Translations under genes and position numbers: made by a program
Notes under the pieces: generated by a model
Told to the model about the DNA's origin: nothing
Seen by the model: the letters and a program-made list of their open reading frames with translations, nothing else
The model's database searches: none
NCBI RefSeq assembly: GCF_015711475.1
Contig: NZ_CP065027.1
Location: forward strand, 310,001-374,000
From: Actinomyces trachealis
Lineage (GTDB): Bacteria > Actinomycetota > Actinomycetes > Actinomycetales > Actinomycetaceae
Reading direction: 5' to 3'
DNA length: 64,000 bases
Part shown: piece after piece, positions 3,642 through 33,978 of the stretch
Layout: each line of letters opens with the position of its first letter
Numbering within the stretch: position 1 is the first letter of the stretch

Positions 3642-5978
3642 ATGGCTACACCTACAGCAATTAAAGAATCCACCTGGGCCGCCGCCACCTGGCCCCTGGG
3701 CGCCCACCTTGGCACCGACGGCGCCACCACCTTCGCCGTCTACGCCCCTGCCGCTACCCGCCTCCAGCTGGAGATCTACCCCGAGGCCCTGGGGGCCAGT
3801 GCCACCGCCACCTACCTGCCTGCCAAGGGCACCGACGGCGTCTGGCGCGCCCGCCTAGCAGACGCCCCCGCAGGCACCCTCTTCGGGTACCGCGCCTGGG
3901 GCTCCAACTGGCCCTATGAGGAGGGCTGGGCCCCCGGCTCCGCCACCGGCTTCATCGCCGACCTGGACAAGCAGGGCAACCGCTTCAACCCTAACAAGGT
4001 CCTCTTTGACCCCTACGCCCGTGAGGTCTCCCACAACGTTTACACCGACGCCCTGGCCGAGCTGGGCGTGGACGACGGCGTACTTGGCACCGGCGGCGAG
4101 CTGGTAGACGGCGTACCTCGCCGCCAGATCGACACCGCCCCCTACGCGCCCAAGAGCGTCGTCATCGACGACCACACGCCCGTGGCCCCTAAACCTGAAC
4201 TGTCCCAAGAGCAGGCCATCATCTACGAGGCCTCCGTCAAACAGATCAGCGGCCATCCCTCCGCCGCCCACCTGGCCGACCTCCTGGCCGGGCAGTACGG
4301 CTTCGAGGGCCTAGTCAACGTCCCCACCGAGTACCTGGGCACCTACAAGGGCGCCGGGATGCTAGCCCCCTACCTAAAGTCCATCGGCGTGAGCACCATC
4401 GAGCTGCTGCCCGTCCACGAGACCAACAGCTCTGAGTCCTGCCAGCCCGGCAAAACCAACGCCTGGGGCTACATGACCCTGTCCTTCTTTGCCCCCAACC
4501 GGAGTTACTCCTCGGACCAATCCTGGGGCGGCCCCACCCGTGAGTTCAAGGAAATGGTCTCCGCTTTCCACGAGGCCGGGCTGGAGGTCTACCTGGACGT
4601 CGTCTACAACCACACCGCTGAGGGCGGCAATTGGGGTGGGGACGTCAACACCACCGGATTCACCAGCCTGGGAGGCCTGGCCACCGCCGAGTACTACCAG
4701 ATGACCGACGGGAAGATCCTCGTCGACGGTGCCACCGGCACCTCCAACCAGATGAACTACTCCTCCCCAGTGGCCCGCCAACTCGTGCTGGACTCCCTGG
4801 GCTACTGGTGCCGCGAGATGGGCGTGGACGGTTTCCGTTTTGACCTGGCTACCGTGCTAGGCCGCAAGCCCGCCGACGCCGCCGCCGAGGACTGGGGTGC
4901 CCAGAAACGCTTCTTCACCGACCACCCACTACTCACCGCTATCGCGGACTTGGCCGCCCAGGAGAACATTGAAGTCATCGCTGAGGCCTGGGACCTGTGG
5001 GGCTACGAAGTTGGCAACTTCCCGCGCGGCTGGGGCGAGTGGAACGGACGCTACCGCGACGCCGTACGCCGCTTCTCCAAGGGTGACGGCAACACCGTCT
5101 CCTTCATGGACATGCTTAACGGCGACTACCACCACTTCGCGGACAATGGCGGCCCCCAGAAGTCCGTGAACTTCCTGGTGGCCCACGACGGCTTCAACCT
5201 GGCTGACCTGGTCTCCTACCAGAACAAGAACAATGACCAGCCCGCCCCCTTCGGCCCCTCCGACGGCGGTAATGACAACAACTTGTCCTGGGACTGCGGC
5301 GGGGACCACGCCCTGCGTCGCGTGCGCCTGCGCAACCTGTGGACCATCCTCATGTTCTCGCGCGGCGTGCCCTTGGTGGTGGCCGGTGACGAGTTGGGCC
5401 GCACCCAGAACGGCAACAACAACCCCTGGGCCATCGACACCGTGGCCATGCGCAACAACTACGCTATGGCGGCCACCAACGCCCCCCAGCGGGTCCCCGT
5501 GGCCGCAGGCGTGGACGCCGCCTACCACGACAACTTGGGTGAGTTCCCGTCCACGGATCCCCAGGTCAACCCGCTGTTGCGCTTCGCCAGTTTCCTAATG
5601 CACTTGCGCCGCGAGCACGCCGCCCTGCACCAAGCCGCCTGGGGAGACATGATCGCCGTCAACGAGGACGTCTCCTACCTGTTCCACACCCCCACCACGG
5701 AGGGCTACCCGCAGGAAGGTGATCGTGCTCTCGCCGTCAACATTGCCGCGCCCGGTGAGTCTTTCTGGCTGATGATCAACATGACCGGCGAGCAGATCGG
5801 CTTCCGCGTGCCCGACGCGCGCACCGGTCGCCGGTGGCGCCGTCTGGTGGATACCTCCACTGCGGCGGAGACAGCTGGCAACTTCTGGCCCGTCGGTGAG
5901 GGTGAGGTGGTCACCGGAGGTACCCCGGTAGAGCCATGGTCGATCGTGGTTTGGCACGAGGAGCCGACGGCTAGCTGA
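3642..5978 (+). CDS. glgX: Glycogen debranching enzyme GlgX (GH13 isoamylase type)
   Basis: The 778-aa cytoplasmic enzyme hydrolyses alpha-1,6 branch linkages of glycogen or limit dextrins. An N-terminal CBM48/isoamylase-N domain (about residues 15-120) precedes the GH13 barrel. Conserved GH13 regions are visible: region I YLDVVYNHTAEGG, region II GFRFDLATV (Asp nucleophile), region III IAEAWD (Glu acid/base) and region IV NFLVAHDG. The length is slightly above the usual 700-ish residues because of an insert around residues 130-200, between the N-terminal domain and the barrel. The ATG at 3642 gives a natural N-terminus, and the HAD gene is divergent from it. A GC-rich hairpin lies about 25 bp after the stop. 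No other glycogen genes are adjacent. Confidence 0.93.
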   Translation: MATPTAIKESTWAAATWPLGAHLGTDGATTFAVYAPAATRLQLEIYPEALGASATATYLPAKGTDGVWRARLADAPAGTLFGYRAWGSNWPYEEGWAPGSATGFIADLDKQGNRFNPNKVLFDPYAREVSHNVYTDALAELGVDDGVLGTGGELVDGVPRRQIDTAPYAPKSVVIDDHTPVAPKPELSQEQAIIYEASVKQISGHPSAAHLADLLAGQYGFEGLVNVPTEYLGTYKGAGMLAPYLKSIGVSTIELLPVHETNSSESCQPGKTNAWGYMTLSFFAPNRSYSSDQSWGGPTREFKEMVSAFHEAGLEVYLDVVYNHTAEGGNWGGDVNTTGFTSLGGLATAEYYQMTDGKILVDGATGTSNQMNYSSPVARQLVLDSLGYWCREMGVDGFRFDLATVLGRKPADAAAEDWGAQKRFFTDHPLLTAIADLAAQENIEVIAEAWDLWGYEVGNFPRGWGEWNGRYRDAVRRFSKGDGNTVSFMDMLNGDYHHFADNGGPQKSVNFLVAHDGFNLADLVSYQNKNNDQPAPFGPSDGGNDNNLSWDCGGDHALRRVRLRNLWTILMFSRGVPLVVAGDELGRTQNGNNNPWAIDTVAMRNNYAMAATNAPQRVPVAAGVDAAYHDNLGEFPSTDPQVNPLLRFASFLMHLRREHAALHQAAWGDMIAVNEDVSYLFHTPTTEGYPQEGDRALAVNIAAPGESFWLMINMTGEQIGFRVPDARTGRRWRRLVDTSTAAETAGNFWPVGEGEVVTGGTPVEPWSIVVWHEEPTAS

Positions 5979-6001
5979 GGCCGGAAAAGCACTGCGACGG
6001 C

Positions 6002-6039
6002 GGGGCGCCGAGGGGCCTGCAAGGGCTGCCCGGCGCCCC
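6002..6039 (+). terminator. Terminator-like hairpin after glgX
   Basis: Inverted repeat GGGGCGCCG (6002-6010) / CGGCGCCCC (6031-6039) with a GC-rich 20-nt loop that can fold further. There is no T run. Confidence 0.5.
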
Positions 6040-6166
6040 TGTGCCACTCGGTCGACGTGAAACTGCGCCAAGTCCAACTCTGCTTGAGGGGGACCTGTGG
6101 GCGGTGGAAAAGCCAGGGACCTGCCATAGGATGCAGCAGACCGCCTGCCCCAAACGAAGGTACATC

Positions 6167-6973
6167 GTGGCCACTGCCCCTCATGCCCAGCCCACTGTTG
6201 CCCCTACCGGGAGTCCTGTACCGCCAGGTGGCTCCCCTGCTATTAGGTCCAGCCGCAACCAAGTTCTGGCTGGCTGGGCCGTGCACGCCTTCACCATGTC
6301 TGGGCTCGTGTGGGCCAGTCTGGCGCTGCTCGCCCTGTACAATGGCTCCCTGAAGTTGATGTGGCTTTGGCTCATCGTCGCACTTGTGGTGGACGGGGTG
6401 GACGGCACCCTGGCCCGCCGGGTGCGTATCAAGGAGGCCGTGCCGTGGTTTGACGGCTCTGTCACCGACATCATCATCGACTACCTGACTTGGACCTTTA
6501 TCCCAGGCGTCTTCATGTACCTGTATCTGCCGCTGGGCCCAAAGCCGCTGGCGGGGGTGCTGGTGCTGGTGGCGCTGGTCTCATCTCTGTTCTGCTACGC
6601 CAACGAAGGCGAGAAGTCCGCCGACAACTACTTTGTGGGGTTCCCTGCCGCCTGGAACGTGGTGGCGGTGATGATGTGGGTGCTGCACACCCCGGCGCTA
6701 GCGAACATCATCTGCACCGTCGTGCTGGCTATCTTGACGCTAGTGCCCACCCACTATGCCCATCCCATGCGAGTGGTAAAACGCCGCTCCCTGCTGATCG
6801 TCCTGGTGTTGGCCTGGATAGCGGGCACCGTCTGGCTGTTGGCGGTCTACCCGAGCCAACCCTTGCCCGCAATGCTGTTGTCAGTGGTTTGCGGTGGCTG
6901 GTTCCTGGCTATTGGTGTGCTGCGTACCCTCCAGGGTCGTCCCGACGAGGTCGAGGGGGCCTTGGAGAGCTGA
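6167..6973 (+). CDS. pcs: CDP-alcohol phosphatidyltransferase, phosphatidylcholine synthase-like
   Basis: The 268-aa integral membrane protein carries the CDP-alcohol phosphatidyltransferase signature, seen as VDGVDGTLARR followed about 12 residues later by FDGSVTDIIIDY. Its order and spacing, with the FDG...D...D second half, resemble Pcs-type phosphatidylcholine synthases, which condense CDP-diacylglycerol with choline. Seven to eight hydrophobic helices are visible. I chose the GTG at 6167 because CGAAGG sits 6 nt upstream; the frame is open to 6041, but those residues look non-protein-like. It is adjacent to and convergent with the orphan membrane protein at 6981-7925. Choline specificity is inferred from signature resemblance only; another CDP-alcohol acceptor is possible. 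Confidence 0.8.
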   Translation: MATAPHAQPTVAPTGSPVPPGGSPAIRSSRNQVLAGWAVHAFTMSGLVWASLALLALYNGSLKLMWLWLIVALVVDGVDGTLARRVRIKEAVPWFDGSVTDIIIDYLTWTFIPGVFMYLYLPLGPKPLAGVLVLVALVSSLFCYANEGEKSADNYFVGFPAAWNVVAVMMWVLHTPALANIICTVVLAILTLVPTHYAHPMRVVKRRSLLIVLVLAWIAGTVWLLAVYPSQPLPAMLLSVVCGGWFLAIGVLRTLQGRPDEVEGALES

Positions 6974-6980
6974 GAGGCGG

Positions 6981-7925
6981 CTAGGCCTCGCGCAGACCCC
7001 TGGCCACGACGACGTCGCGCAGCCAGCGCAGGCCCTCCAGCGCCGCCGCTCCCAGAATCATGGTGACCACTGCGGCCACCACCCCGTGCGGATAGTCCCG
7101 GCCCTGCATCCAGAAGTACACGTAGGGTGACATGAAGGTCACCACCGTGGTCAGCAGACCCAGCACGCGTACGCGCAGGCGACGGCCTGAGACCATCGCC
7201 AGGATGCCCCAGGTGTAGGGGATGGCCGTGAGTACGTCGATGGCCCACAGCACCCAGACCTGCCCGGTGAAGCCCGGCACGAAGGCCACTGGCAGGGCCC
7301 GCAGTGAGGAGTAGGTGAACACGGCCACGTAGGCCAGGAATACCGGGTTGGACATGGCGCGGCGCGCCAGCGTGCGCTCGGTGAAGGCCACCTGGGCGCG
7401 GCGCATGGCCGCCAGGGTCCGGCGGGAGCAGCGGGTCGTATCCGTTCCCTCCAAGCACTTGCGCAGAAAGCCCTGCCCGGCTTCTCCCCGATCCGAGAGG
7501 GACACAATGACGTCTGCCGGGTGCACGCCCACGACTACCTTGCCGTTGGCGTCGGCGGGGCCAACCTGGTGCACCAGGTCCGCGCCCAGGACGTGCCGGA
7601 GGCGCTCCATGGCGCCTGCGGGCAGGTGGGCGAGCCACAGGCGGGTGCGTTGTTCGACGGCGTGGTCCAGGGCGTTGCCCAGTTGCCAGCCAAGGTTGTC
7701 TGGTTGAAGGAGGAGGGTGGGGTCGGCGTGGGCCAGTTCGGCCAGCAGTGGCCGCTCGACGACGTCGTTGGCGGAGCCCAGGTCACCGATGCGGCCCGCT
7801 CCGCTGGCGGTCAGCAGGGCCTGTGGCTCCAGCACGGTGCGCTGCACCAGGGGGACCGAGAGCATGGAGCGGAGGGCCAAAAGGCGCCCCAGGGGGCCGA
7901 GGTGATGGGGAGCGGACGGGGTCAT
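6981..7925 (-). CDS. Uncharacterised membrane protein with soluble N-terminal half
   Basis: The 314-aa protein was not recognised. Residues 1-180 are soluble-looking, with charged segments and leucine-rich stretches. About four hydrophobic helices follow (roughly residues 193-213, 222-240, 260-280 and 283-300), and the protein ends in an Arg-rich tail. Its ATG at 7925 is 7 bp from convergence with the pcs-like gene. There are no signal peptide, catalytic motif or Cys cluster. Codon use matches the surrounding genes, so it looks like a resident gene. Confidence 0.6.
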   Translation of the reverse strand: MTPSAPHHLGPLGRLLALRSMLSVPLVQRTVLEPQALLTASGAGRIGDLGSANDVVERPLLAELAHADPTLLLQPDNLGWQLGNALDHAVEQRTRLWLAHLPAGAMERLRHVLGADLVHQVGPADANGKVVVGVHPADVIVSLSDRGEAGQGFLRKCLEGTDTTRCSRRTLAAMRRAQVAFTERTLARRAMSNPVFLAYVAVFTYSSLRALPVAFVPGFTGQVWVLWAIDVLTAIPYTWGILAMVSGRRLRVRVLGLLTTVVTFMSPYVYFWMQGRDYPHGVVAAVVTMILGAAALEGLRWLRDVVVARGLREA

Positions 7926-9630
<1,705 letters not shown>

Positions 9631-27022: not shown

Positions 27023-28075
27023 TCAGCGCCCCTGGTTGCGGCGCATCTGCGCGATCGTCGAGATGACGGCAGCGATCCCGCCGAAGAGGACACCTGCCAC
27101 CGGCCAGACCACCCAGCTTGTCGTCCACGCGTCGAGGGTGAAGGACCAGACGAGGTAGATGACAATGGTGAGTGGCCAGTAGGCGGAGGCGATGATGCCT
27201 ATGACGTCGTCCGTGTTGTGCCAGTTCTCTGGGGCGTTGCCGGGCCGCCCCTGCTCGACCAGTGCCGCGTGGGTCGAGGCCGCCCAGTTCGTTGGCAGGA
27301 AGATCCACAGGCCCAGCGCGACAAGCGCCAGCGTGAGGGCCGCACCGAAGGACGAGTAGTCGTGGTGTCCGGGCATCTCGGACAGGATGCCGGTGCTCAC
27401 CAGCGGGATCGCGGCGATGATCCACAGGCCGACGGCCGTTGCCAGGGCGCGCGTGCGCGGGCCCTCGTGCTCCATACGCAGGCGCACCGCCCATGCTGAG
27501 ACGATCGGGTCCTGGGTGAAGTGACCGCTGAGCAGGTGCTGGATGCCCATGAAGGCCCGTCTGCGCCGGATGAGGATGAGCACGCCTGCCGCGATGAGGA
27601 CCAGCATGACTGGCAGCCCGATGAGGGTGGCTTCGGCCTCCGTGATGGCAAGCGGGCCCGCGCCTGCGGCCGCACCGGTCAGCGCGATGTGCGGGGCGGC
27701 AGCCAGGACGAGCAGGGCCACGGCATTGCCCAGGGGGCGGGCGGTGGTGCGTTTGGCCTCGGCCAGGGCCTGGGCCTCGGGCAGGGTGACGACGGGGAGG
27801 CCCGCGGTTCCTGCGCTGTTGGGCGTCGTGGAGCTCACTGCTGCCTGTGACTGATGAATGTCGGCAACAATGCCGAGGGTGGGCGCCAGCTCCTCGAGGT
27901 TTCCGAAGTCGGTGATGACGAGGCCGACGGCCTCGTTGTGGGTTTTGCCGGCGCTGATCGCGTCGGCGTAGGCGTCTTCCATCATGGCGCGCAGCTCGGC
28001 TTTTGCCTCGGCCAGGCGCGCTGTGTCGGGGTAGGGGGCGAACATGGCCTGCAGGAAGGTGTCGATGGCGTCCAT
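27023..28075 (-). CDS. Permease-prefix-domain membrane protein paired with PadR
   Basis: The 350-aa protein has an N-terminal helical 'permease prefix'-type domain (about residues 1-65), with the typical DAYADAISAGKTHNEAVGLV and DFGNLEELAP. A linker and then six or so transmembrane helices follow (clusters near 115-135, 145-165, 215-232, 245-268, 298-315 and 320-340). It overlaps the PadR gene by one base (TAATG), so the two are cotranscribed and translationally coupled. PadR-controlled genes of this type often respond to envelope or antimicrobial stress, but no substrate-binding or ATPase motif is present here. Confidence 0.75.
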   Translation of the reverse strand: MDAIDTFLQAMFAPYPDTARLAEAKAELRAMMEDAYADAISAGKTHNEAVGLVITDFGNLEELAPTLGIVADIHQSQAAVSSTTPNSAGTAGLPVVTLPEAQALAEAKRTTARPLGNAVALLVLAAAPHIALTGAAAGAGPLAITEAEATLIGLPVMLVLIAAGVLILIRRRRAFMGIQHLLSGHFTQDPIVSAWAVRLRMEHEGPRTRALATAVGLWIIAAIPLVSTGILSEMPGHHDYSSFGAALTLALVALGLWIFLPTNWAASTHAALVEQGRPGNAPENWHNTDDVIGIIASAYWPLTIVIYLVWSFTLDAWTTSWVVWPVAGVLFGGIAAVISTIAQMRRNQGR

Positions 28076-28413
28076 TAGGAGCGTCCTTTCTGGGGGAAAG
28101 CAAAGCGGTCAACGAGGTTCTTGGTGTCCTCCCACTCGGCGAGCTTGTCGCCCAGGTGGGTGGCTCCCTGGGAGGTCAGGCGGTAATAGGTGCGGGGCTT
28201 GCCGGAGCCGGAGACGTCCGCGAAGGTCTCAGTCAATCCGGCTGCCTCCAGCCGTTTGAGGGCGGTGTAGAGGGTGGTCTGCTTGATGCTGTAGGCCTCC
28301 CCGGAGACCTCTGAGATGGTCTTGGCCAGCTCGTAGGCGTAGGAGGGGTGACGCTGCAGCAAGGACAGGACGATCAGGTCGATGTACCCGCGTATGGCGT
28401 CTGCGCTGATCAT
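28075..28413 (-). CDS. PadR-family transcriptional regulator
   Basis: The 112-aa PadR-type winged-helix regulator has IDLIVLSLLQRHPSYAYELAK (recognition N-helix region), then IKQTTLYTALKRLEAAGL and KPRTYYRLTSQGATHL (wing). The short C-terminal part suits subfamily 2 PadR proteins. ATG 28413 has AGGAG 5 nt upstream on the coding strand. It is the first gene of a two-gene operon with the membrane protein, and an extended perfect palindrome sits 37 bp upstream of its start. Autoregulation through that site is the likely control. Confidence 0.92.
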   Translation of the reverse strand: MISADAIRGYIDLIVLSLLQRHPSYAYELAKTISEVSGEAYSIKQTTLYTALKRLEAAGLTETFADVSGSGKPRTYYRLTSQGATHLGDKLAEWEDTKNLVDRFAFPQKGRS

Positions 28414-28470: not shown

Positions 28471-28630
28471 GGCAAACGTGTTAATCCCCAAGGCTCTCGA
28501 TGGCGAGACCCGGTCTGGACCAGGATTACGGCCCATGCCTGCACGGCTGAGCCGCAGACCACTCAAGCGACCCTGTTCCCACAGCTGTCCAGCGGCACCG
28601 TCTTATGTCCCCAGGCCCTAACCTGTGGGC

Positions 28631-29767
28631 ATGCTGCCTACCACCACCCCCACCCCCACGCCCAGCCCCGGCCCGGTAGAGGGGGCCGCAGAGGTGGTGG
28701 TGCAGGCAGGCCTCAGCTTCCTGTACGTGGCCTGGCGCGTCGGTGCCGGGGTGCTGGCAGGCCTGGCCGCCGCCGTAGCCCTGGCTCTGGTGCTATCTGT
28801 CCTGGGGCGCCGCCGCGCCCTCCTGGTCGAGTTCCGCAAGTACTCCCGCAACACCCTCTACCTGGGTGGGGCACTTGCCGGTGCCTGGGTGGGCCTGCAG
28901 TACGCCTACCTGGACCACCAGGTGCCCGACTGGGTGACCCTGGCCTCCCGCCTCCTGCTGGCAGGCGTGGTACTGGCCGGGGCGGGCGTCGTCGTCGCTC
29001 TAGTAAAGGCCGTGGAGGCCAGCATCGTCACCGCCGTGGAGGACGGCGGCGACCCGCGCCGCGCCAACCGCATCAAGACCCAGGCCCAGGTGCTGCGCCG
29101 CGTGATCCAGGTGGTGATCGTCGTGTGCGGCCTGGCAGGTGCGGCCATGGTCTTCCCCAGCGCCCGCCTGGCCATGGGCTCCCTGCTAGCCTCCGCCGGA
29201 CTGGTCTCCGTGATCGCGGGCCTGGCCGCCCAATCCACCCTGGGCAACGTGTTCGCGGGCCTGCAGCTGGCCGCCACCGACGCGATCCGGGTAGGGGACG
29301 TGGTCAAGTTGGACCTGGACCAGGGCACTGTGGAGGAGATCACCCTGACCTACGTCGTGGTGCGCATCTGGGACGACCGGCGCGTGATCTACCCCTCCAG
29401 CCACTTCACCACCAATCCCTTCTCCAACCTCTCCCGCCGCGGCACCCAGCTCACCGGCACCATCAACATGCAGCTGGACTTCCGGGTGCCGGTGGACCGC
29501 CTGCGCGGCGAGCTGGAACGCGTGGTTGAGCAGGCTCCCGGCTGGGACGGGCGGGAGGCCAGCCTACAGGTCACCGACGCCGTCGCCGGAGTGGTAACCG
29601 TGCGGATCGTGCTCTCCGGGCGAGATGCCAGCAGCGTCTTCAACCTGCAGTGCTACGTGCGCGAGCAGCTGCTCACCTGGCTGCAGACCAAGGTGCCGGA
29701 AGCCCTGCCCCGCACCCGAGTGGTGGTGGAGGCCGCCCCAGGTGTGGACGCCCCCGAGGCCCGGTAG
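28631..29767 (+). CDS. Small-conductance mechanosensitive channel (MscS family)
   Basis: The 378-aa membrane channel opens under turgor stress to release solutes. A Thr/Pro-rich N-terminus precedes three or four N-terminal helices (about residues 30-60, 75-90, 98-125 and 155-178). The pore helix follows, with LASAGLVSVIAGLAAQSTLGN. The MscS beta domain comes next, with GDVVKLDLDQGTVEEITLTYVV, then RVIYPSSHFTTNPFSN and a C-terminal alpha/beta domain. ATG at 28631 is chosen over GTG 28625. It is divergent from the PadR operon and convergent with the ABC ATPase of the peptide locus. Confidence 0.92.
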   Translation: MLPTTTPTPTPSPGPVEGAAEVVVQAGLSFLYVAWRVGAGVLAGLAAAVALALVLSVLGRRRALLVEFRKYSRNTLYLGGALAGAWVGLQYAYLDHQVPDWVTLASRLLLAGVVLAGAGVVVALVKAVEASIVTAVEDGGDPRRANRIKTQAQVLRRVIQVVIVVCGLAGAAMVFPSARLAMGSLLASAGLVSVIAGLAAQSTLGNVFAGLQLAATDAIRVGDVVKLDLDQGTVEEITLTYVVVRIWDDRRVIYPSSHFTTNPFSNLSRRGTQLTGTINMQLDFRVPVDRLRGELERVVEQAPGWDGREASLQVTDAVAGVVTVRIVLSGRDASSVFNLQCYVREQLLTWLQTKVPEALPRTRVVVEAAPGVDAPEAR

Positions 29768-29793
29768 GTCGACAGCGGGGTGGCGCCGAGAAG

Positions 29794-29819
29794 CCGGTCA
29801 TGTCCGCCGCGTGGACACC
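29794..29819 (+). repeat. 26-bp intergenic repeat, copy A
   Basis: This sequence recurs in opposite orientation at 54002-54027 with one mismatch in 26. It contains the imperfect palindrome TGTCC-N7-GGACA and lies 26 bp after the mscS stop. See the findings. Confidence 0.6.
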
Positions 29820-29988
29820 TGCCCGCCCTGTGCACAGCTCCGGAGAGAAGAGCGAGTGTGCCCCCACCTTGCCCCAAGCCCTCCCTGGCTCAGTGCCGTA
29901 AAAGATTAACCTTTACGCCATACCAACGAAAAGTCCCGCCTCAACCCCGCTAACATCCAAAGTGCCAGGAGTCAGGGCAGACGGTGAC

Positions 29989-30059
29989 GCCCAGCCAGGG
30001 GCGCCAGACCACCCCCAGGCCGCGGTGGGCAGGGGCGACGGCGTCGCCTGGCTGGGGCG
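29989..30059. terminator. Terminator-like hairpin between mscS and the ABC ATPase
   Basis: CGCCCAGCCAGG (from 29989) and CCTGGCTGGGGCG (30047-30059) form a long-range stem flanking an internal GC-rich loop. It abuts the 3' end of the minus-strand ABC ATPase and may terminate both convergent transcripts. An AT-richer tract with CTTTACGCCATACC lies just before it (about 29905-29935). Confidence 0.45.
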
Positions 30060-30737
30060 TCAGGCCTCGATCAACCCGTCACTCATGTGCACCACCCGGT
30101 CGCACTGCTCGGCAACCTTCAGATCGTGAGTGGCCACCAGCACCCCACAGCCCCGCCGCGCCGAGGCCCGGAACAGGGACACGACCTCCTGGGCGGTAGC
30201 CGAGTCCAGGGCAGCGGTGGGCTCGTCAGCCAGCAGCAGCACTGGGTCATTGGCCAGGGCTCGGGCGATGGCCACGCGCTGGCGCTGCCCGCCGGACATC
30301 GCCTGGGCCCGGCTGCGGAACAAGGACTCCTCCAACCCCACCGCACGCAGCAGCTGCGCGCAACGCTCCCGGCGCACCGCCCGGGACGGCACGGGGCGGC
30401 GGTACTCCAGGGGGATAGAGACGTTGGCCAGGGCCGTTATATCCTCCACCACCGGGTACTGCTGCTGGATGAAACCGATGCTGCGGTTGCGCAGGCGGGC
30501 GCGGTCGCGTTCCACCACCGGAGCGGGTCGGCCCGCTACCTGCACCTGCCCGCAGGTGGGGCTGAGCAACAGCGCCGCCACCAGCAGGGCGGTGGATTTG
30601 CCGGAGCCGGAAGGCCCCATCAGGGCCACCATCTGCCCCGACTCGATCGCCAGGTTGATGCCGCCCAGGGCGTGGACCGTCTCCGTCCCACGGGTGTAGT
30701 CCCGGTGGACGTCTTGCAAGAGCAGTACCTCAGTCAC
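30060..30737 (-). CDS. ABC transporter ATPase of the secreted-peptide locus
   Basis: The 225-aa ATPase of the MacB/LolD type. Walker A is GPSGSGKST, the Q-loop is in FIQQQYPVVEDITALANV, the signature is MSGGQRQRVAIARAL, Walker B is LLLADEPTAALD, and the H-loop is VATHDLK. I chose GTG 30737 because it overlaps the stop of the upstream permease (GTGA) and yields a normal N-terminus; the frame is open to 30872 inside the permease gene. It is the last gene of a peptide-permease-permease-ATPase cluster. In lactococcin-972-type loci an equivalent ATPase works with a large membrane protein, with a proposed role in self-protection or export. Confidence 0.92.
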   Translation of the reverse strand: MTEVLLLQDVHRDYTRGTETVHALGGINLAIESGQMVALMGPSGSGKSTALLVAALLLSPTCGQVQVAGRPAPVVERDRARLRNRSIGFIQQQYPVVEDITALANVSIPLEYRRPVPSRAVRRERCAQLLRAVGLEESLFRSRAQAMSGGQRQRVAIARALANDPVLLLADEPTAALDSATAQEVVSLFRASARRGCGVLVATHDLKVAEQCDRVVHMSDGLIEA

Positions 30738-31813
30738 AGTGCCAGTCCATCCTTTCTGAGCAGGTACCGGCGTGCGCTCCAGAAGACCACTCCGAAGCAG
30801 GCCAACACGCATACGGCGGCCACCCGCGCCCCGCCGTTCACGGGGTAGCCAAACAGGAGGAGCAGGCCGCACATAAGCAGCGGCAGCACCAGCATCACGC
30901 AGCCGGTAAAGCCAGCTAGCCGCAGGCTGATCATGGTGGGTGTGGCGCCACAGGTGCGGCGGATCACCAACTCCGGCATCTCGTGGTCCACAATCGCACG
31001 GGAGGTGGCGGAGAAGGCGTAGCCCGTGAGCAGGCAGAAGGCACTGATCGCCACGATATACATACCTGCGGCAACCATAAGCGATTTGAATTGCTTTGGT
31101 TGTTGGAGCGACAACTGTTGCGGCACCAGGTAAAGTCTATCGCCAGCTGTGTTCTGGACTAGGGCCTCGACTTGTTGGGCGGATTGGCCGATGTAAACGG
31201 TGCGTGAAACGGCCTCTTCAAGCTCGAACTCGTCCAGGTAGGTTAGTTGTTCCGGTGTTATTCGGACAACTAGGTGGTCTTCAAGGTTCTTGCCTGCCGC
31301 ATGTGGGTCGAACCAGTTCATCCCGGCTGGATGCTCGCCAACTACTGGTACCTGGAGGCCGTGCAAGTCCACCGCAGTGGGGTAACTACTAGCCTGGGGC
31401 CCGAGCGTGGCACAGGGCGGGGAACCACATAGGGACAAGCCGGGCAGCACTTCAGGGGCTAAGTCGCCGACGATAACAATCGCGGGGACTCCGTCTGCGA
31501 AGTCTGGGGCTTGGGAGCTAACGTTGTATATTACGGAAGTGTAGGCCCGGCCTGCGGCAATGTCCTGCGTCAGGATATCGCGCGTTTTGGTTGAGACGTT
31601 TGTGACCCCAAGGTTGCCGTAATATGTGCTGAAGATTGTGGCCTGTTCCTGCCGGAGTCGGCTACCAGCGCGCAGCGCCGTCCACTGGACCAGGACGTCA
31701 GAGAGCACGAGGGCCAGCACTAGGCATGCCATGGCGAAAATCAAGGCAACTGCCCCCACTGATCGCCCGCGCTTCAGGGCGATCCGTGCTCCTGCCAACA
31801 ACTCCCTACGCAT
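30734..31813 (-). CDS. MacB-like half-permease of the peptide locus (B)
   Basis: The 359-aa membrane protein has one N-terminal helix (about residues 18-42) and a roughly 200-residue extracytoplasmic domain with two Cys (SLCGSPPCA). Three C-terminal helices follow (about residues 245-270, 295-320 and 328-345). This is the topology of one FtsX/MacB half-permease. The C-terminal part 'LVIRRTCGATPTMI' is the FtsX-like coupling segment (compare RRAxGA). It overlaps the ATPase start by 4 bp and the upstream permease by 8 bp, so the three genes are translationally coupled. Codons are more AT-rich than neighbouring genes. I infer it forms an ABC complex with the 329-aa protein and the ATPase. Confidence 0.8.
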   Translation of the reverse strand: MRRELLAGARIALKRGRSVGAVALIFAMACLVLALVLSDVLVQWTALRAGSRLRQEQATIFSTYYGNLGVTNVSTKTRDILTQDIAAGRAYTSVIYNVSSQAPDFADGVPAIVIVGDLAPEVLPGLSLCGSPPCATLGPQASSYPTAVDLHGLQVPVVGEHPAGMNWFDPHAAGKNLEDHLVVRITPEQLTYLDEFELEEAVSRTVYIGQSAQQVEALVQNTAGDRLYLVPQQLSLQQPKQFKSLMVAAGMYIVAISAFCLLTGYAFSATSRAIVDHEMPELVIRRTCGATPTMISLRLAGFTGCVMLVLPLLMCGLLLLFGYPVNGGARVAAVCVLACFGVVFWSARRYLLRKDGLAL

Positions 31814-32795
31814 GAGCGATCTCCTTGAACGTGAGTACCGCTTGGCGGTGAATGAGCGTGCCCAACAGGGCCACCAGAAGTAGCGCGGTGAGCGGAACCG
31901 CCAGGGCCAACCACCACAGGACTCCTGGGGGCAGAGAGGTCTGTGCTAAGCCGCTGGTAAGCAGCAGTGCCGCAGCCGCACCACATAATGTTCCCAACGC
32001 AGGCTCCCAGGCAGAGCGGCTTAAGGTCTGCTTGGTAATCTGGGTGGCAGTGCCGCCGGACAGGACATGTACCTGAAATGCCGTGACTCTTCCCCGGAGT
32101 GCCGCCCGCCAGTAGATGCCTGCAGCAACGATCCCACCTAGGGAAAGAAGTGCGGACATATCTATCAACGGATTGAATATCAAATCGAGCCATGTAGGCG
32201 CTTGTTGATCTCCGGTTCGGTATCCGTGAGTGGAGAGTAGCTCAATTAACTCACGGGTTCTGGCTGAGTCTCGGGAGTTAAGTGTGTAGCGGCCTTTAGG
32301 TAAGGGGGTCTCCTGTGAGGGCGTGTAGATGTACTGTAGCGTGTCTGTGTCGAAGCCCGGAGAAAGTGTGCCAACCAGCTGGGTGTTCTCTGGGGTTAAC
32401 GGGCAATGCGTGGGACCTGTAGAGAACTCGGCGCAGTAGGAGTCTTTAAAGACCATTAGCTGCGAGTGGTCCTTGGGTTCAAGTGGGGTGTCTATCCAAG
32501 GTATCGCCCCAGTCGGGTCGATAACTGTCAGGCCGGGAAGTCCTTCTTTCTCGGGGGCGATCAGCAGGGCCAGGCTGTTGCGTCGCAGTAGCTCGGTTAC
32601 CTCGGTGGTTAAGTTGTTATCGGCGATCTCTCTGGGAGGGGACGCCGAGAAAGACGAGTGATCCGCGCCAATCTGGTAGCTGATTGCGGCCCTACTCTGG
32701 AGGGTCCATCCGATGGACCAGACAAAGAAGGCCATGAGCACTCCCGCCAGGAGGCTCGGCACAAACATTTGTCCGCGGATGAACCCCCCGGTCAC
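31806..32795 (-). CDS. MacB-like half-permease of the peptide locus (A)
   Basis: The 329-aa membrane protein has the same order as its downstream partner: one N-terminal helix (about residues 11-32), a roughly 170-residue outside domain with two Cys (YCAEF and HCPL), then three C-terminal helices (about 213-230, 263-285 and 290-312). The segment LSGGTATQITKQTL before the penultimate helix resembles the coupling region of FtsX-type permeases. Together the two half-permeases total about 690 residues. That is the size of the single 'bacteriocin-associated integral membrane protein' found beside lactococcin-972-like peptides, so this may be a split form. The start lies 31 bp after the peptide gene's stop. 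Confidence 0.78.
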   Translation of the reverse strand: MTGGFIRGQMFVPSLLAGVLMAFFVWSIGWTLQSRAAISYQIGADHSSFSASPPREIADNNLTTEVTELLRRNSLALLIAPEKEGLPGLTVIDPTGAIPWIDTPLEPKDHSQLMVFKDSYCAEFSTGPTHCPLTPENTQLVGTLSPGFDTDTLQYIYTPSQETPLPKGRYTLNSRDSARTRELIELLSTHGYRTGDQQAPTWLDLIFNPLIDMSALLSLGGIVAAGIYWRAALRGRVTAFQVHVLSGGTATQITKQTLSRSAWEPALGTLCGAAAALLLTSGLAQTSLPPGVLWWLALAVPLTALLLVALLGTLIHRQAVLTFKEIAHA

Positions 32796-32826
32796 AGGCG
32801 ACCCTCCTCTCGGAGGCTAGCAGTTG

Positions 32827-33189
32827 TCAGCATGACAGGCCCCAGTAATACTGGGTCACATATCGGTCTCCCCAAAGAGGCGAATCCCAAACCCAGTCGT
32901 GACGGGACTGCACGTCATTCCAACTTGACGCGGATGTGTAGAGCCTGCCGGTATCTAGGCTCGGTCCTGCTTCTCGAACAAATCGCTGGTAGGCCCATCT
33001 TGGGTAGCAACCGTATTCTGGCTCCCAGTGTGAACGCTGGACCTGTACGTATCCATTGCGAACTGCTCCGCCCAAGGATTCCCAGGTGGAACCGTAATTC
33101 GGTCCTGAGGCGTAAGCGACAACTGGAGCAGCCGCCGCTGCGGCGCCGATCAGAGCGGTTGTAACAACCTTCCTGAGTGTGTGTGCCAT
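32827..33189 (-). CDS. Secreted Trp/Tyr-rich peptide, candidate bacteriocin
   Basis: The 120-aa precursor has a Sec signal: basic MAHTLRK, a hydrophobic Ala-rich core and an AYA cleavage site, predicted after residue 27. The mature part is 93 residues with 8 Trp, 9 Tyr and two Cys, one internal (EYGCYPRW) and one at the very C-terminus (GLSC), so a disulfide is possible. The ATG at 33189 has a strong AAGGAGGA 7 nt upstream, much better than neighbouring genes; a start at 33228 would add 13 unlikely residues. Context (peptide, large membrane protein, ABC ATPase) recalls lactococcin 972. The C-terminal YYW echoes that peptide's aromatic end, but residue-level similarity is too weak for a family call. 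Antimicrobial activity is inferred, not shown. Confidence 0.75.
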   Translation of the reverse strand: MAHTLRKVVTTALIGAAAAAAPVVAYASGPNYGSTWESLGGAVRNGYVQVQRSHWEPEYGCYPRWAYQRFVREAGPSLDTGRLYTSASSWNDVQSRHDWVWDSPLWGDRYVTQYYWGLSC

Positions 33190-33255
33190 GACAGTGTCCT
33201 CCTTTTCCTGAACTGGTTGTGATGGCAACAGATCACGGCATGTGGCGTATAAATT

Positions 33256-33285
33256 AGATTAGTTCCCTCCTAATGCGACCAGCAA
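33256..33285 (-). promoter_or_regulatory. Candidate promoter of the secreted-peptide gene
   Basis: On the minus strand, TTGCTG (33280-33285) and TAATCT (33256-33261) are spaced by 18 nt, about 65 bp upstream of the peptide start. This stretch is the most AT-rich DNA of the neighbourhood. A second TTAGATT copy lies at 33313-33319. Confidence 0.45.
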
Positions 33286-33429
33286 TAGGCTGATCGAATG
33301 AGGCTCTAATAGTTAGATTTGCTGTGTGCGTTTGCTGTGGAGTGGTGTACAATATTCGCCTTTCGGGCCGCGTACTGCTCCCTGGGGCCTCCGCGCAGAA
33401 GTCGGGCGGGCAGGTGACACACTGGGGGC

Positions 33430-33977
<548 letters not shown>

Positions 33978-33978
<1 letters not shown>

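Follow-up and report, generated by a model that had tools for sequence, protein, structure and literature searches.

A putative bacteriocin-type cassette of Actinomyces trachealis with the layout of lactococcin 972 loci and a secreted peptide lacking detectable sequence relation to lactococcin 972

In lactococcin 972 loci, a signal-peptide precursor, a permease and an ATP-binding cassette (ABC) ATPase are encoded in this order in one operon, which holds no modification enzyme. Lactococcin 972 binds lipid II (PMC4055356; PMC11796350) and peptides of this kind are thought to use the Sec pathway (PMC11796350). Similar genes are known from Bifidobacterium longum infantis and from propionibacteria, as mentioned in PMC4289311. 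In PMC4055356, orf2-orf3 of lactococcin 972 are treated as immunity genes and, among the strains listed there, those carrying the whole lcn972 cluster tolerate 800-1600 AU/mL, as compared with 12.5 AU/mL without the cluster. Mediterrocin, for which antibacterial action has been demonstrated, is a diverged secreted peptide of 89 residues encoded beside a multi-transmembrane protein and an ATPase (PMC12345188). Here, we describe a four-gene locus of similar layout in a stretch of 64,000 nucleotides from Actinomyces trachealis (contig NZ_CP065027.1, positions 310,001 to 374,000), hereafter called the window. The locus would probably be an acquired bacteriocin-type cassette, in which a LolCDE-like pump protects the producer, working in the manner of lactococcin 972 loci with an unrelated peptide family; this is the reading that we favor, with reasonable confidence.

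The cassette occupies positions 30060-33189 of the minus strand and comprises a gene for a Sec-type precursor (P0001), genes for two four-helix membrane proteins (P0002 and P0003), and a gene for an ABC ATPase (P0004; Table 1). A previous sequence-only reading of the window had reported this set with spacings of 31, 8, and 4 nucleotides, and the reading frames confirm it: 31 nucleotides separate the peptide gene from that of P0002, the P0002 and P0003 genes overlap by 8 nucleotides, and those of P0003 and P0004 by 4. Owing to this short gap followed by two overlaps, translation of the last three genes is probably coupled. Ribosome-binding-site-like motifs were recognized by eye ahead of the ATG of the peptide gene (AAGGAGG, 33204-33198) and ahead of the P0002 gene (AGGAGGG, 32808-32802). 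A promoter and terminator scan gave no result above shuffle expectation, and no own-strand site ahead of the operon. Judging from genome comparison, the four frames may be taken as real genes rather than chance frames, because homologous peptides are found in the same frame and because the four-gene order is repeated in other genomes.

Table 1. Positions of the cassette genes and of the surrounding segment in the window.
Feature	Position	Strand	Remarks
Secreted-peptide gene P0001	32827..33189	-	ATG start, 120 residues; residues 1-27 predicted signal, mature part 93 residues
Predicted Sec signal peptide of P0001	33109..33189	-	Cut AYA|SGP; sequence inspection
MacB/LolC-like permease half 1, P0002	31806..32795	-	GTG start, 329 residues, about 4 transmembrane helices, outside domain of about 175 residues
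MacB/LolE-like permease half 2, P0003	30734..31813	-	ATG start, 359 residues, 4 transmembrane helices, outside domain of about 205 residues
ABC ATPase P0004, MacB/LolD/DevA/FtsE-like	30060..30737	-	GTG start, 225 residues
Acquired (or lost) segment, absent from genome G047	29781..33401	.	Flank comparison with G047

The N terminus of P0001 has the n/h/c organization of a signal, with a hydrophobic segment at residues 7-27, and inspection of the precursor reveals no lipobox. In homologues, the signal ends with AMA, AYA, AHA, or AFA at the equivalent position. The mature peptide (10.9 kDa, pI 6.0) contains 8 Trp, 9 Tyr, and 2 Cys, is 19% aromatic, and has a grand average of hydropathy (GRAVY) of -0.87. 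Five homologous mature peptides, encoded in the same frame, are 37-65% identical to it. Among six representative peptides of the family, four have two Cys and two have none. No match to P0001 was found in Pfam or NCBIfam at E<=10, in PADLOC at E<=0.01, or in PHROGs at E<=0.1. Actifensins, defensin-like bacteriocins from Actinomyces, are likewise secreted and have ABC genes nearby. However, according to PMC6989792, actifensin is a peptide of 37 residues with six Cys, and its gene set (afnB-L) is larger, as compared with 93 residues, two Cys, and a four-gene operon here; with this size and Cys content, against a short peptide with six conserved Cys, P0001 was rejected as an actifensin. In one homologous locus (L012/L043), no ATG, GTG, or TTG precedes the signal peptide in the peptide frame. 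CTG being the sole start listed in the upstream part, this gene may have an unusual start or be damaged.

The sequence-only reading had likened the locus to a lactococcin 972-type system with an unusual peptide. This likeness is borne out by the layout and by the lack of a model match to the peptide, and the lactococcin 972-type label stands as regards gene order and transporter type. It fails as regards family membership, on PF09683, TIGR01653, and the profile test described below. The hidden Markov model searches suggested at that stage, with PF09683 and TIGR01654, left P0001, P0002, and P0003 without a match (PF09683, and TIGR01653 as well, at E<=10 for P0001; TIGR01654/DUF1430 for both permease halves). 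P0004 scores 159.5 bits against TIGR03608, below the cut-off of 254.85, as do the other ATPases scanned (0 of 7 reach it). PF09683 peptides occur in 7 of 49 genomes of the genus (L027-L033), each followed by a membrane protein of 661-686 residues and an ATPase; in the genome of the window itself, PF09683 finds nothing at E<=0.001. As tests of membership, the permease and ATPase models count for less than the peptide models, because loci of the genus with true PF09683 peptides fail them too: the TIGR01654 cut-off is passed in 0 of 49 genomes, the seven PF09683-bearing ones giving likewise no match.

A profile of six P0001-family peptides was compared with 25 lactococcin 972 sequences, column-shuffled and reversed profiles serving as controls. 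The score was 7.85, a value equalled or exceeded by 172 of 200 shuffles (shuffled mean 10.1; reversed profile 12.0). As positive controls, six diverged lactococcin 972 members, picked by eye, scored 33-74 against the rest, and a second peptide of the genome of the window scored 21.3 against the whole lactococcin 972 profile, which none of 150 shuffles reached. The second peptide of genome G181 scored 29.0 against the P0001 family, over 18 columns only, again reached by none of 150 shuffles. These controls attest to the power of the test, and the layout is used by no fewer than two families of peptides. With no PF09683 or TIGR01653 match and a score at shuffle level, P0001 was rejected as a detectable member of the lactococcin 972 family; at the level of sequence, its family has no detectable relation to lactococcin 972. 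The mature sizes are nevertheless comparable (93 residues here, 66 for lactococcin 972 according to PMC4289311), the genus is the same, the operon here likewise holds no modification enzyme, and a predicted secreted peptide, a permease, and an ATPase follow each other in one operon in the window and in 13 further genomes. The differences reside in the peptide, in the permease halves and ATPase, which fail the lactococcin 972 models, and in the permease being encoded by two genes. Mediterrocin differs from P0001 in being annotated as a lactococcin 972 family bacteriocin with a DUF1430 permease (PMC12345188).

A second cassette lies elsewhere in the genome of the window (L036, G000:C1:2198000-2212000, 5294-8525, minus strand). 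It encodes a secreted peptide of 97 residues with weak similarity to lactococcin 972 (TIGR01653, 16.7 bits for a cut-off of 32.1), a fused TIGR01654-like permease of 732 residues, and an ATPase near the lactococcin 972 ATPase model (227 bits). It adjoins an amidase and a phage holin and is possibly prophage cargo. In the lactococcin 972 peptides of Actinomyces, six full frames of seven having been read, the Cys of a His-Pro-x-Arg-Cys-His motif and a C-terminal Cys are jointly present in L027, L028, L030, and L031 and both absent in L029 and L033. This joint presence or absence suggests an optional disulfide.

The P0001 family was found in 14 genomes, 5 of 213 from the same taxonomic family and 9 of 189 from a second family. 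It is present in 3 of the 49 genomes of the genus and, in an evenly drawn sample of the order, in 3 of 396, namely the genome of the window and two of the nine from the second family. Relatives may exist beyond the genomes searched. The neighborhood comparison advised by the sequence-only reading supports that reading: peptide homologues devoid of an ABC partner would have spoken against it, and P0002-like, P0003-like, and ATPase frames lie immediately downstream of the peptide in 14 of 14 genomes. Besides the window, phmmer recovers all four proteins in 12 genomes (G037, G013, G173, and the nine of the second family). In G181, the most distant, it recovers the peptide, P0003, and the ATPase, the P0002-like half being found by profile comparison (probability 97.4). 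The nine second-family genomes are probably Bifidobacterium, because solved phosphoketolases, which come from that genus, match a phosphoketolase of one of these genomes over 823 residues at about 1609 bits. P0002 itself occurs in 7 of the 49 genomes of the genus, four of them with no recognized peptide (no match, and upstream frames inspected by eye); in two of these, G021 and G020, each of the three transporter genes has an open frame.

In G181, another, different secreted peptide is encoded about 5 kb from the first cassette, accompanied by a split permease and an ATPase of its own (L045 12356-12844; L084 2356-5249); the C-terminal motif of this second peptide resembles that of the P0001 family. 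In G411, from the second family, the neighborhood of the cassette (L050 4998-12510) includes two tyrosine integrases as well as a protein weakly similar to AbiEii, the score of which is below cut-off; the integrases lie inside the stretch common to the other eight copies.

The cassette is flanked on one side by a mechanosensitive-channel-like gene (28625-29767) and on the other by an msrB-like gene (33430-33978), both on the plus strand. Genome G047, whose msrB is the most similar in the genus (95%), has neither the peptide nor P0002. Its flanks, 91% and 88% identical to those of the window, are 60 nucleotides apart instead of 3621. With 60 nucleotides where the window has 3.6 kb, the cassette looks acquired, which is the simpler reading. 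In G002, which also lacks the cassette, about 160 nucleotides separate the nearest matches. The lowest 1-kb GC content of the window (0.570, for a mean of 0.667) falls inside the cassette, a stretch near 59.75 kb being nearly as low (0.572). Among the cassette genes, GC content is 57-60% for those of the peptide and the permease halves and 70% for that of the ATPase. Loss of the cassette in both G047 and G002 may be envisaged as an alternative to gain.

As concerns the transporter, hydropathy indicates for both permease halves a first transmembrane helix, a large outside domain, and three further helices. The AlphaFold model of P0003 (predicted local distance difference test, pLDDT, 71) matches LolCDE, MacB, BceB, HrtB, YtrF, and FtsX in Foldseek and VIA-align comparisons, and P0003 is thereby predicted to fold like the LolCDE/MacB/BceAB permeases. 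This fold evidence covers P0003, whereas the class of P0002 rests on topology and on profile alignment, the alignment of its family spanning residues 60-380 of L016, a fused homologue, with an hhalign probability of 100. Between P0002 and P0003 there is a weak profile match (34 columns, probability 36.6) and no significant pairwise BLASTP similarity. The FtsX domain PF02687 gives 15.0 and 10.6 bits, short of its cut-off of 25.5, and is matched at E<=0.1 in one of eight P0003-family members. P0004 matches PF00005 (6.3e-30) and is of the LolD/MacB type by its best NCBIfam models (MacB 183, DevA 181, LolD 178, L_ocin_972_ABC 159.5 bits, none reaching its curated equivalog cut-off) and by its PDB matches, which include MacB and LolD. 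The whole thus resembles the Type VII transporters LolCDE, MacB, and BceAB in its two halves and its ATPase, but sits in another operon and presumably handles another substrate.

The division of the permease, which the sequence-only reading had found unusual, is no distinguishing oddity of the cassette, because the permease is fused into one frame in the relative G001 and because a TIGR01654-like permease of the same genus is encoded by two genes in G042, where the N-terminal half is assigned by position and topology. TIGR01654-like C-terminal halves are separate genes in both G042 and G029 (L034 and L035). In G042, the N-terminal half ahead of it has four helices. In G029, the upstream frame seems to be interrupted and is itself preceded by a short signal-peptide-like frame that ends right after GGGTWN, apparently a truncated lactococcin 972-like peptide.

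A Sec signal makes an ABC exporter needless for membrane crossing, and Type VII transporters act from the outer face. As P0001 has a predicted signal peptide, a dedicated exporter would be unnecessary. We infer the following scheme, including Sec export, stoichiometry, antibacterial action, target, and a role in immunity rather than in export. The precursor would be exported by the Sec pathway and trimmed by signal peptidase, giving a folded Trp/Tyr-rich peptide of about 93 residues, which would act on neighboring Gram-positive cells, most likely at the cell envelope. One P0002, one P0003, and two P0004 would form a LolCDE-like Type VII ABC complex. Acting at the outer side of the membrane of the producer cell itself, this complex would detach the peptide from the membrane or cell-wall precursor that it targets, much as a target is freed by BceAB, and thereby ensure self-protection. 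BceAB indeed appears to protect the targets of cell-wall-active peptides from bound peptide (PMC7038271). The constant linkage of peptide and transporter, the patchy distribution, the empty site and low GC, the tyrosine integrases of G411, and the true lactococcin 972 cassettes of equal layout in the genus would all argue for a bacteriocin, as would the predicted fold of P0003. Transporters with no recognized peptide, as seen in four of the 49 genus genomes, are what would be expected of immunity-only loci.

Several observations weigh against this bacteriocin reading. At the site of the cassette, a part of the stretch missing from G047 (window 29977-30052) is matched at 78% in G002. Since G002 keeps it, G047 may have lost some sequence there; for the same reason, the left 270 nucleotides of 29781-33401 are not cassette-specific, the specific part being narrower, about 30053-33401. 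Synteny among the near-identical copies of the second family extends over about 12.9 kb, with 93-98.6% identity to one of the nine, so that together they amount to about one lineage. Of the four transporters that lack a recognized peptide, two appear decayed: the P0002 match of G017 contains two in-frame stops, with a transposase frame, recognized by eye, immediately upstream, and the ATPase match of G001 is split over two frames, so that these loci support immunity weakly. The AlphaFold model of the peptide (pLDDT 41, a few strands only) is unusable for a comparison with the beta-sandwich of mature lactococcin 972 (2LGN). As the profile comparison gives no link between the peptide and lactococcin 972, the proposed function is carried by architecture alone. 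For lactococcin 972 loci themselves, PMC11796350 describes immunity conferred by just the ABC pair as experimentally unverified, and the antibacterial activity of the P0001 peptide is putative.

Considering the same data, other explanations may be envisaged. The transporter could belong to an envelope-stress or drug-resistance module, the peptide serving a BceAB/YtrEF-like transporter as a secreted accessory, whether sensor, adaptor, or decoy, and killing nothing. The P0003 fold indeed matches BceB and YtrF as well as LolE, the peptide always adjoins the transporter where it is found, and transporters without the peptide exist. However, none of the five neighboring genes scanned in the window encodes a histidine kinase or a response regulator, one of them being a PadR-type regulator beyond the channel gene, and a patchy distribution, an empty site, and co-occurrence with lactococcin 972-type cassettes in the genus fit a bacteriocin better; such a module is thus considered unlikely. 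Alternatively, the ABC complex could serve for export or release, taking the Sec-exported peptide at the outer leaflet and releasing it in the way in which lipoproteins are extracted by LolCDE, with immunity residing elsewhere. The precursor without lipobox, the hydrophilic mature part, and the genomes of the genus that keep the transporter without a recognized peptide make this role quite improbable.

A last explanation overlaps with the bacteriocin reading and contests only the unrelatedness of the peptide family. P0001 would be a strongly diverged lactococcin 972 member, with structural homology beyond sequence detection, as mediterrocin is to lactococcin 972 (18% identity; PMC12345188). 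The cassette layout is the same, size and aromatic content are similar, and Cys are optional in both groups, the pair being present in four of six peptides here and in four of six full lactococcin 972 frames of the genus. The profile test nevertheless separates them, with 7.85 as compared with 33-74 and 21 for the diverged lactococcin 972 controls, so that this kinship, while holding a real share of the probability, seems rather doubtful.

Among the papers listed from the open-access literature on lactococcin 972, its immunity and ABC transporters, and on Actinomyces and Bifidobacterium bacteriocins, no title or abstract opening describes the P0001 family. It is tempting, with chances somewhat short of even, to regard it as a so far undescribed family of bacteriocins, present in Actinomycetaceae and probably in Bifidobacterium, without sequence relation to lactococcin 972, and borne by a mobile four-gene cassette, with a heteromeric LolCDE-like transporter stripping the peptide from the producer's envelope. 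If so, a single cassette layout would have been reached by convergence in two or more unrelated families of peptides, and bacteriocin mining with lactococcin 972 models would overlook a class of peptides secreted by Actinomyces and probably also by bifidobacteria. The cassette would also offer a tractable system for the role of the two transporter genes of lactococcin 972 loci, a question posed in PMC11796350, the transporter here occurring with and without the peptide, fused and split, among related species.

Past the channel gene and outside the cassette, positions 27023-28413 of the window hold the gene of a PadR-type regulator and, after it, that of a membrane protein with no match in Pfam.

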